From Vulcanimicrobiia bacterium (GTDB lineage: Bacteria; Vulcanimicrobiota; Vulcanimicrobiia; Vulcanimicrobiales; Vulcanimicrobiaceae), in assembly GCA_024281075.1 (NCBI GenBank), contig JAMXLK010000105.1, positions 1 through 32,551 on the forward strand: 32,551 nucleotides of DNA, written 5' to 3'. Positions 14,757-18,420 of the stretch are shown here, piece by piece. The position numbers were made by a program, and so were the translations under genes. Within the stretch, counting starts at the first letter, position 1. Each line of letters starts with the position of its first letter. Below the pieces are notes generated by a model that worked only from the letters and a program-made list of their open reading frames with translations, was not told where the DNA came from and made no database searches.

Positions 14757-15560
14757 ATGAAAATTCGGTCAGCGATATTTTTCGCCGCCGCCGTTGCGCT
14801 TGCCACATGGGCAGGGCGCGGCGCTATAGCGGCGGACCTTACCGACGTCGGGTTCATCGACCAGTCCGATCTGGCGAACCTGCCCGTCTTCGTCGCGGCA
14901 AACCGTCAGTTAGCGACGGCTAAAACGCAGATGGACTCGCAGTTCAACGCCCAAGTGAAGCACGTCCGGACCGATGCGCAACGCCAGCAGCTGACGCTGC
15001 AGTTTCAGCAACAGTTCAACGACAAGCAGCGCGAGATCGTCGGACCGCTTTTTCAGCGCGCGCAGCTGGCAATTGCAGCGGTCAGCAGTTCCCGAAACCT
15101 CTCGATCGTCGTCGACAAACGCATCGTGATTTTCGGAGGCCAAGATATCACCAAGGACGTCGAGGCGGTCTTTGCCGGGCCACAGGCGATCCAGCCGCCG
15201 GCCGCCACGCCGCCGCCGTCGCAGATCGGATTCGTCGATCAAAACGTGCTTGACGGCGTACCGAAAGTGCAGACGGCGAACGCGACCATGCAGCAATTCG
15301 AAACGACGCAGCGGCAAGTCTATTCGGCGCGCATCGCGCAGGCACGCACGCCGGCGGAGAAACAGCAGATACTCACGGAATTCAACAAGACCATCAGCGA
15401 TAAGCAGGATCAGCTGCTCAAGCCGCTGGTGGATCAAACGCGGTCCACGACATCCGACGTCGCGCGAAAGAAAAACCTGATTCTCGTAGTCGACAAAGCC
15501 GACGTGATCTATGGAGGGACGGACATCACGCCCGATGTCCAAAATGCGCTTACGAAGTAA
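14757..15560 (+). CDS. OmpH/Skp-family periplasmic chaperone with two tandem Skp-like domains
   Basis: Signal peptide; VGFIDQ...VIFGGQDITKDV and IGFVDQ...VIYGGTDITPDV, two copies of an OmpH-like unit. Confidence 0.85.
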   Translation: MKIRSAIFFAAAVALATWAGRGAIAADLTDVGFIDQSDLANLPVFVAANRQLATAKTQMDSQFNAQVKHVRTDAQRQQLTLQFQQQFNDKQREIVGPLFQRAQLAIAAVSSSRNLSIVVDKRIVIFGGQDITKDVEAVFAGPQAIQPPAATPPPSQIGFVDQNVLDGVPKVQTANATMQQFETTQRQVYSARIAQARTPAEKQQILTEFNKTISDKQDQLLKPLVDQTRSTTSDVARKKNLILVVDKADVIYGGTDITPDVQNALTK

Positions 15561-16821
15561 GATCGTTGCCTTCGCCGCACTTGCGGTCCTGGCCGCCTGT
15601 GGGCCGAACGTCCACTCCTCCGCCGTGCGCGGCACCGGCTACGTGCGGGTCGACGAGATCGTAAAACACCACCCGCTCTACCCTCAGCTTTCGCAGATCG
15701 ACGATGCGATTGCGGCGATCAATCTCGCCTCGGTCGCGCCGCACGTTCCGATGAGCGCGTCGCAGATCGCCGCGCAGACCGGGGAGCTCAATCGCGAGCT
15801 GCGCGACGCGCAGCTCCGGGCGAATAAGATTCTCGCGCAAAAGCAGCACGACTACGCGCAGCGAGAATCGCAAGCCGTTTCGGCGGCTCTCGCCGCCGCC
15901 GGCATTCACGGTTCGGGCGGCCTTGCCGGGCAGCAAATGAGCGGCGCTTCGGCGCAGCAGCTGCAGCAAGCGACGCAGGCGGCCAACGCCGATCTCCAGG
16001 CCTATCAGCAGAACGTGATCGCACAGAACAATGCAGCGAGCAACTCGATCGAGCGGAACTTGCAAACCCAAGCGGATCAAAAATACCGCGCCAAGGCCGA
16101 ACAGCTTCAGCAAAGCGAAACCGATCTGTCGTTGCGGCTCACGCAGCAAGATGCAGCTCAGCGCCTCGCCATCAAGATGCGGCTCTCGAATTTGGCATTG
16201 GATCCGACGCAGCGTAAGCAAGCGCAGGAGCAGCTCGCGGCGATTAATTCCCGAGAATCCGCGGCCGTCGAGACACAGCGAAATGCCGACGCAGCAACGC
16301 TGCGTGCGTTGCGTGCGCAGCTCGACCGCCAGACGGGCGATGCCATTCGCAATCAAGTGGGCGCGATTGCGGCGCAGACGCGTCAAAAACTCGAGGAGCG
16401 GCGCAACGAGGTCGGATCGCAGCTGCGCAGCTTGGGGCCGCCGCCGGTACCTAATAATATTCCGCCAAACGTCCAGGCCCGAATCGCGCAGATCCATCGT
16501 CAGTACGTCGGCGCATTCCAAAGCGACGCGGCAAAGACGGTGGCCGACTACAACGCGACGAAGGCGGACCTGGACCGCCAGTTCGCGGCGCTCCACGGAG
16601 CCGACGTCGGCGCGACCGGAGCGGCGGCGAAGGAGCTCGATGCACTAACGAAGCGGCGGGGCGAGCTCTACGGGCAAATCGTCGCTCAGATCCGGAACGA
16701 CGCTTCGCGTATCGCCAAGGAGCGAGGATTTACCGTCGTCTTCGCCGACATTTGGTCGGCGGCGGGCGGCTACGATCTCACCAACGAAGTCATTAAGGAC
16801 GTCGAAAGTCAACACGAGTGA
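15535..16821 (+). CDS. OmpH/Skp-like coiled-coil lipoprotein (ATG 15535 or 15544; track ORF opens at 15511)
   Basis: Lipobox-like LAVLAACG, Gln/Ala-rich coiled coil, C-terminal Skp-like ERGFTVVF...GGYDLTNEVIKDV. Confidence 0.7.
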   Translation: MSKMRLRSKIVAFAALAVLAACGPNVHSSAVRGTGYVRVDEIVKHHPLYPQLSQIDDAIAAINLASVAPHVPMSASQIAAQTGELNRELRDAQLRANKILAQKQHDYAQRESQAVSAALAAAGIHGSGGLAGQQMSGASAQQLQQATQAANADLQAYQQNVIAQNNAASNSIERNLQTQADQKYRAKAEQLQQSETDLSLRLTQQDAAQRLAIKMRLSNLALDPTQRKQAQEQLAAINSRESAAVETQRNADAATLRALRAQLDRQTGDAIRNQVGAIAAQTRQKLEERRNEVGSQLRSLGPPPVPNNIPPNVQARIAQIHRQYVGAFQSDAAKTVADYNATKADLDRQFAALHGADVGATGAAAKELDALTKRRGELYGQIVAQIRNDASRIAKERGFTVVFADIWSAAGGYDLTNEVIKDVESQHE

Positions 16822-17225
16822 AAAAGCAGAGACTGATTCTATTATTCTGCGCCGCGGGCGCACTTGCGGGCTGCGGAGCGCATAGTTCCATCGGCTTGGT
16901 CGACGTGCAGCGCATCGTCGCGAACTGGCCGGAGTATCAAGGTTACCAGAACCAACTGTACGCTGAGGAGCGGTCTATTCAATCGCGGCGTGAGAGTGCG
17001 AGGCGCAAACAACAAGCGACGCTCGACCTCCAGCGTAAGTACACCAAAGTGACCGACCAGCTTTCGTCACAAATTCGCGACGCCGCGGGAAAGATCGCTT
17101 CACAACGGCAGCTGAAGCTGGTGCTGACGCGCGAGGGAATCGGATACGGCGGCGTCGACATCACCGCGGACGTCGAGAAAGCGCTCAACATAACGGAAAA
17201 GGCGACGCCGACGCCGGGTACTTAG
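16818..17225 (+). CDS. OmpH/Skp-family lipoprotein
   Basis: Lipobox-like AGALAGCG, SSIGLVDVQRIV, coiled coil, KLVLTREGIGYGGVDITADVEKAL. Confidence 0.8.
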   Translation: MKKQRLILLFCAAGALAGCGAHSSIGLVDVQRIVANWPEYQGYQNQLYAEERSIQSRRESARRKQQATLDLQRKYTKVTDQLSSQIRDAAGKIASQRQLKLVLTREGIGYGGVDITADVEKALNITEKATPTPGT

Positions 17226-17388
17226 TGTACTGTCTCCGATATCACTTTACAGTCGCCGGGCGTCTTTTTGGGCGGATGCTGCGTTGCTCATCGGTCACGA
17301 AGCTCCGGCTTCGCTCCCTCTTCGCGCCTTGCCCCGACCAAAAATCCGTCCCGGCTTTGTGTAAAGCCATATCGGAAACAGTACACTA
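17223..17388. mobile_element. MITE-like palindromic element with 29-bp imperfect terminal inverted repeats and TA flanks
   Basis: Left TAGTGTACTGTCTCCGATATCACTTTACA (17223-17251) versus reverse complement of right arm (17360-17388) TAGTGTACTGTTTCCGATATGGCTTTACA: 26/29 identical. Pairing continues inward (GCCGGG..TTTTTGG / CCAAAAA..CCCGGC). No ORF encoding a transposase inside. Confidence 0.75.
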
Positions 17389-17400
17389 GGCGCAAGGCTG

Positions 17401-18420
17401 ATGCTCGGAACGCTTGAAGAGCTCGCTGCGCGACTCGGAGGACGCGTCGTCGGCGACGGCGCCGTTCGCGTCGCGCGCGTCTCCACGGTTGACGACGCGA
17501 CCGGCGATGCGCTGACCTTTGCGACGACGCAGGCCTTTCTCGATGCCGCGATGCAGGGTGCGGCCGCGGCTATTCTGGTCGAGGATTCCTTGGTGCCCGG
17601 CGCACCCGCGAAGCCGTTGCTGGTCGTTCCGAACGCGCGCCAGGCGCTAGTGCAGCTCCTGGCGTCACTCGAGGCCCCACGGCCGCGCGGCCCATTTGCG
17701 CATCCCACGGCAGTCGTCGAAGCCGACGCGCGGCTCGGCGACGACGCCTTCGTCGGCGCCCACGTCTACATCGGGCACGGTGTCGCAATCGGCCGCGACG
17801 CCGTCATTGCGTCGGGCTGCTACATCGGCGACGGCGTTACGATCGGCGACTCGGTTTGGATCCATCCGCGTACGAGCGTCATGGCGCACACGCGCATCGG
17901 TAATCGCGTCGTGCTGCACGCGGGCTGCGTGATCGGCAGCGCCGGTTTCGGTTGGGCATTCGTCGAGGGCCGCTCCCAGCGCATTCCGCAGATCGGCAAC
18001 GTCGTACTCGAAGACGACGTCGAAATCGGCGCCAATAGCTGCGTCGACCGCGCGCAGACCGGAAGCACGCTGATCGGTACGGGTACCAAGATCGATAATC
18101 TCGTGCAGATCGGGCACAACTGCCGCATCGGAAAACATTGCGTCATTGCAGCGCTGACGGGCTTGGCCGGATCGACGATCATCGGGGACTACGTCAAGGT
18201 CGCGGGACAAGTCGGCTTCAGAGGACACGTCACCGTGGGCTCCCACGTAACGATCGCCGGCCAGTCGGGAATTTGGAACGACGTCTCCGACGGCGCGACG
18301 CTCTCGGGCAATCCGGCGCACGATCACCGCGACGAACTTCGGCAAAAGGTCATGATTCGTAAGCTGCCAAAGCTGTTCGACCGTGTCGAGGCTCTCGAGC
18401 GTTCGCGCACCGCGCAGTAA
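17401..18420 (+). CDS. lpxD: UDP-3-O-acylglucosamine N-acyltransferase
   Basis: Left-handed beta-helix hexapeptide repeats, N-terminal LpxD domain, IGSAGFGWAF, QIGHNCRIGKHCVIAALTGLAGST. Confidence 0.96.
   Translation: MLGTLEELAARLGGRVVGDGAVRVARVSTVDDATGDALTFATTQAFLDAAMQGAAAAILVEDSLVPGAPAKPLLVVPNARQALVQLLASLEAPRPRGPFAHPTAVVEADARLGDDAFVGAHVYIGHGVAIGRDAVIASGCYIGDGVTIGDSVWIHPRTSVMAHTRIGNRVVLHAGCVIGSAGFGWAFVEGRSQRIPQIGNVVLEDDVEIGANSCVDRAQTGSTLIGTGTKIDNLVQIGHNCRIGKHCVIAALTGLAGSTIIGDYVKVAGQVGFRGHVTVGSHVTIAGQSGIWNDVSDGATLSGNPAHDHRDELRQKVMIRKLPKLFDRVEALERSRTAQ

Follow-up and report, generated by a model that had tools for sequence, protein, structure and literature searches.

MITE families are classed by their ends, because it is the ends that the transposase reads. 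Precise terminal repeats bounded by a target duplication are expected of DDE transposases, and RAYT transposases recognise REP hairpins. RUP of Streptococcus pneumoniae is mobilised by IS630-Spn1 and was assigned to this IS on the same kind of evidence as used below, namely matching ends (PMC2229807). Like the element analysed here, RUP is a short, gene-less intergenic palindrome with a TA duplication and with ends resembling those of a resident IS630-family IS. The two differ in that shared sequence between them is not known and that a structural module common to other MITE families has not been reported for RUP.

The Correia/NEMIS, ERIC and CIR elements and other bacterial MITEs are likewise 100-300 bp long, several of them have TA termini and their transcripts form long hairpins, but they represent lineage-specific families with ends of their own, for which these sources report no core common to different phyla (PMC2229807, PMC10969869). 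REP sequences are also conserved mobile hairpins of bacterial intergenic DNA; however, they measure 20-40 bp, carry a GTAG/CGTC tag at one end and lack TA-bounded terminal repeats (PMC3733652). At the foot of the core consensus described below a GTAG/CGTC tag was not found, and by this criterion the elements fall outside the REP/RAYT group. SINEs with a highly conserved central domain (V-SINEs, PMC6887750) are likewise non-autonomous and conserved in their middle, but they are eukaryotic retroelements and the likeness is one of analogy alone.

Insertion at the skp3-lpxD junction

The window, which is the whole stretch of 32,551 nucleotides analysed here, corresponds to contig C105 of the host genome G000, a 2.47-Mb draft of 87% completeness. 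At 14757-17225 it holds three skp/OmpH-like genes in a row, with a bamA-like gene on one side and lpxD on the other; the second of the three has an unusual length of 436 aa. A preliminary description of this DNA had reported a TA-flanked palindrome at the stop codon of the third gene, and we found its sequence and coordinates to be correct. The features of the junction are as follows.

16818-17225, plus strand: skp/OmpH-like gene no. 3 (skp3), stop codon intact (open reading frame; C-terminus aligned with congeners)
17223-17224, no strand: TA, left target-site duplication, bases 1-2 of the skp3 stop TAG (sequence; congeners with a single TAG here)
17225-17386, no strand: non-autonomous palindromic insertion of 162 bp, very probably an IS630-type MITE (fold z = -10; missing in 14/15 congeners)
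17225-17251, plus strand: left terminal inverted repeat GTGTACTGTCTCCGATATCACTTTACA (GTGTANTGTCTC and subterminal TTTACA common to the right end of the G014 IS630 element)
17279-17332, minus strand: conserved core, "GA-ladder" hairpin, GCAAGGCGCGAAGAGGGAGCGAAGCCGGAGCTTCGTGACCGATGAGCAACGCAG (covariance model match; covariation in 31 divergent copies)
17360-17386, minus strand: right terminal inverted repeat, minus-strand reading (sequence)
17387-17388, no strand: TA, right target-site duplication (sequence)
17389-17400, plus strand: gap left before lpxD, in which GCGCAAGGCTG is 17390-17400 and an AAGG stretch resembling a ribosome site appears to be retained (sequence)
17401-18420, plus strand: lpxD, downstream of the element (open reading frame; orthologues in 27/29 genomes searched)

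The segment 17225-17386 is palindromic and holds no gene. The plus strand of 17223-17388 (166 nt) folds at -78.6 kcal/mol, as compared with -44.7 ± 3.4 kcal/mol for dinucleotide shuffles (z = -10; equalled by 0/200 shuffles), and this value bears out the long hairpin that had been expected from pairing running inward. The minus strand of the same stretch folds to -97.3 kcal/mol as RNA. When the outer 29 nt were compared between the two sides (TAGTGTACTGTCTCCGATATCACTTTACA versus TAGTGTACTGTTTCCGATATGGCTTTACA), 26 positions were complementary; the earlier count was thus reproduced, with the correction that the TA belongs to the 29. With less than 500 bp, terminal inverted repeats and no transposase gene, the element has the size and ends of a MITE, and the TA duplication at 17223-17224 and 17387-17388 is the one asked of IS630/Tc1-mariner elements. 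Excision of the element together with one TA gives GGTACTTAG GCGCAAGGCTG ATG, which restores the stop codon as the preliminary description had proposed, and the stop TAG at 17223-17225 indeed consists of TA plus the first G of the element. In the congener G017 (L056), GGTACTTAG is read at this place.

Junctions of relatives were fetched via LpxD, and 15 congeners were readable at skp3-lpxD. Here, we found the empty site that the insertion model predicts for sister genomes: in 14 of the 15 congeners the gap measures 0-19 nt and the long palindrome is absent, and where the window has GGTACTTAG plus the element, several of them read GGTACGTAG or GGTACTTAG, with a single TAG. Judging from these alignments, 17225-17386 was recently inserted at a TA. 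The combination that had been named as evidence for a fixed structure, a junction sequence conserved among relatives and no further copies, was not observed. In the fifteenth congener (G003) another element of the same kind lies at the lpxD start; it has the end TAGTGTCGTGTC and a core inside, the core-bearing palindrome being located in L043 (G003:C241) at about 1290-1510, and in-frame TTG codons within this insert may now be used as lpxD start. In G017 (L056, G017:C70) the stop codon of skp3 carries TTAGTGGGCCACTAA, which looks like a trimmed remnant of the TAGTGGCC-ended element type that occurs elsewhere in the genus; alternatively, it may be a palindrome by chance. The G003 element and the apparent G017 remnant suggest that this junction may have been hit repeatedly.

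A palindrome with a very stable fold between co-directional genes of an envelope operon might also be read as a fixed regulatory structure of the skp-lpxD operon, such as a terminator, an attenuator or an RNase III site. However, it is absent in 14/15 congeners and G003 has a different element there, the stem is not followed by a terminator-type T tract, and elements with the same core stand in all gene contexts, where a strong strand bias is absent. We consider this explanation extremely improbable, and a fixed operon terminator was rejected on the empty sites in 14/15 congeners.

Terminal repeats and IS630 elements

At its ends (TAGTGTACTGTCTC...TTTACA), the window element matches the ends of full-length ISs of the IS630 family (DDE_3) found in its own genus and family. 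It has the TTTACA and 13 of the first 14 bases in common with the DDE_3 element of G014, and further full-length elements of the family have the same 14-base end. A by-eye count along the right end of the G014 IS gave 22 matches at 28 terminal positions with TTTACA equally spaced; beyond the first 14 bases and TTTACA, the ends of the window element and of the ISs diverge. When 99 genomes of the family were searched for TAGTGTANTGTCTC, nine places were found, one of which is the window element. The other places are IS630 elements (one in G014, two in G099), copies at contig ends (two in G099) and single ends (G002, G014). L210 and L214 are copies cut by contig ends, and L212 and L217, which hold single ends only, are apparently stray IS ends. 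Three distinct elements among these places are full-length (about 1.1-1.2 kb) and carry DDE_3 transposases, whose mutual identity amounts to 52-71%. Thus, the full-length IS with matching ends that the preliminary description had suggested looking for exists in the family, and the assignment of the window element to the IS630/Tc1-mariner group is supported by both the TA duplication and the DDE_3 IS ends. Since its ends match those of IS630-family ISs, the segment is very probably a selfish non-autonomous MITE of the IS630 type.

DDE_3 (Pfam; IS630-family) transposases are rare in relatives (3/41 genomes), where they sit in elements that end with TA followed by GTGTAGTGTCTCA and with TA followed by GTGTTATGCGCC. 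Our transposase searches covered two families, DDE_3 and DDE_Tnp_1, in draft genomes, which lose IS copies; within this scope neither was found in G000 (87% completeness), so that the window copy looks stranded. Related links were seen outside the family. An IS630 element of Novosphingobium (Sphingomonadales) with TA and GAGCGTTTTCC at its ends matches the ends of the core elements there (GAGCGnTTTCC), and the GGGTC ends of other core elements resemble a DDE_Tnp_1 element, which is a weak hint.

The conserved core

Other genomic copies resemble mainly the middle of the element and not its arms, the common stretch being 54 nt long. With a covariance model we detected eight cores at six loci in G000, the arms differing between them. 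The expectation of more copies in this genome and in relatives was therefore borne out for the core, which occurs at five other loci of G000 and in many relatives, but not for the full arms, of which a second copy was not found. The nearest relative of the window element belongs to another genus; its inner 114 bp show 83% identity, and its ends are unrelated. The window core scored 78.6 bits (E 5.6e-22) against the covariance model, the window copy itself being among the 31 training rows.

On the core strand (CGAnGAGGGAGC...GTGACCGAnGAG), Watson-Crick steps alternate with tandem G.A pairs between the two sides. The n-n pair, which was free in the search pattern, is Watson-Crick in 32/37 divergent copies and occurs in all four types, and the G.A positions not forced by the pattern hold in 29-34 of these 37 copies. 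Among 31 aligned copies, 94.5% of the cells pair (77.9% in shuffles), 65 cells are compensatory (20.7 in shuffles) and the covariation score is 0.430 as compared with 0.125 ± 0.016, where kinship can inflate the difference from shuffles and several invariant positions are set by the search pattern. The covariation signal was lost when the partner columns were slid. Unconstrained energy folding of the window minus strand yields the same G.A ladder. In RNA folding, the G.A strand was the stabler one in 37/37 cores (mean -19.5 versus -11.8 kcal/mol), whereas with DNA parameters the strand difference was small (-7.8 versus -6.9 kcal/mol); these folding models would favour an RNA role of the core. 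Longer elements, of about 270 bp, have two cores that are inverted relative to each other, which gives each strand one G.A hairpin. In G000 such double-core elements (about 270 bp or more) are L321, L322, L319 and L320 (contigs C31, C154, C75 and C115).

Of 148 genomes searched in the phylum, 34 contain a degenerate core pattern; one of these belongs to the same order and the others to the same family. A reversed control pattern gave 0 matches in the 148 genomes. Among the matches listed in a scan of species genomes, the core occurs within palindromic miniature elements of Eremiobacterota, many Sphingomonadales, Bacteroidales, Gemmatimonadota and Elusimicrobia, and also in single records of other groups. 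Core matches in named records are labelled Candidatus Eremiobacterota, and some are sequence-identical to family-member loci; metagenome records may, however, bear an incorrect taxon label. The covariance model counted 22 cores each in G089 and G142. A Sphingomonas had 10 and the 2.9-Mb Elusimicrobia draft REEB4 (G153, L138) had 74, and since many of the latter lie at contig ends, the elements appear to fragment that assembly. Sphingomonas-type elements are also present in L133, L140 and L146 (RPSH01), titled Bacillus sp. 2B10, a label that is probably wrong. In 13 loci the core was unmatched by the Rfam 15 covariance models, for which the sole match was mir-598 (E 3.1), adjacent to the element. 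When plasmids and phages were searched with the core, a Novosphingobium element or its end, there was nothing beyond short chance matches to the end, viral contigs gave 0 matches to the core pattern, and no description of the core was found in open-access papers, including a search for its letters.

Variable ends, spread and stop codons

Terminal repeats were seen in 120 of 131 core matches with enough flank, under a loose criterion that chose a spurious outer pair for the window copy; with a stricter criterion, at least 66 core elements end TA...TA. The ends of the TA...TA elements are diverse (GTGTCCTGAGCC, GGAGCCTGTCGG, GAGCCTGTCC, GAGCGGTTTCC, GCAGGTTGCGG, GACCCTG, GGGTCC). In Bacteroidales and Elusimicrobia the core elements have three-base duplications (TTA/TTA, TGA/TGA), and the target duplications are thus of two kinds, TA and TNA. 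In the family, the element type seen most often is TAGGAGCCTGT; its ends are paired at a spacing of about 110-275 bp and never at IS distance, and an IS-length partner was not found in the genomes searched. In two Novosphingobium genomes TAGAGCCTGTCC is likewise paired at short range and never at IS distance.

Internal deletion of an IS is the usual origin of MITEs, and the core might then be leftover sequence of particular ISs. This origin is very unlikely here: the same core stands between many different terminal repeats with two duplication lengths, and IS630 and IS5-type elements with related ends hold no core. On both grounds, leftover IS sequence was rejected as the source of the core. 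A second alternative is that the class is moved by an enzyme recognising the core hairpin itself, in the manner of REP/RAYT, with the terminal repeats being secondary. It would account for a core that stays constant while the repeats differ by type and phylum, for high-copy types without an IS-length partner and for G089 (22 cores) and G153 (74 cores), in which neither DDE_3 nor DDE_Tnp_1 transposases were found. However, the searches covered these two transposase families in draft assemblies, which lose IS copies, and the terminal repeats are precise, TA- or TNA-bounded and, in two lineages unrelated to each other, the same as IS630 ends over their matching stretch. We therefore regard this alternative as unlikely.

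For the IS630-type MITE that we prefer, the following route is proposed. The element entered the TA in the skp3 stop codon and duplicated it, the stop being rebuilt because the element begins with G. It was presumably mobilised in trans by an IS630-family (DDE_3) transposase reading TAGTGTA(C/G)TGTCTC...TTTACA. The core is a separate conserved module, common to miniature elements that differ in ends and target duplications; it may act as a folded single strand, RNA being likelier than DNA, and would benefit the element, in its spread or tolerance, rather than the host operon. We suggest, tentatively, that the core acts in folded form, probably as RNA, and might thereby aid persistence or movement of the element. 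A host regulatory role is unlikely, since the sites are unconserved and there is no strong orientation bias to genes. With a crude gene finder, gene contexts relative to the G.A strand were ++ 27, -- 18, +- 29 and -+ 13, and because this ORF model misplaces genes (it missed skp3 and lpxD in L001), only the lack of a strong bias is used.

The chances appear about even that the core represents an undescribed tandem G.A "ladder" hairpin module, which is found in otherwise unrelated miniature transposons from five or more phyla and is passed between families that differ in ends and target duplications. It would then be a functional part that can be transferred, with a protein-binding, anti-silencing or transposition-enhancing role, much like the conserved central domains in SINEs. 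Varying ends around a covarying conserved middle across phyla suggest selection on the folded strand, and such selection would act inside elements usually thought to be passive cargo. The core is short, a covariance model defines it, and cultured Sphingomonas and Novosphingobium carry it, so that its role is directly testable.

Landing in stop codons is a habit of the element class. The boundary reads TAG at 101 and TAA at 7 of 108 element sides. At 65 sides with one dominant upstream open frame, this frame ends exactly at the element edge in 40 cases versus 21.7 expected (one third, for insertion indifferent to the reading frame), a count that may be slightly inflated since a few loci may be orthologous insertions; the remaining frames account for 12 and 13 sides. 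The excess is equally explained by survival of harmless insertions or by targeting. A TA target combined with an element starting with G or A offers a simple account of how operons can be entered with little damage. Several elements end frames on both sides, in overlapping stops of convergent genes.
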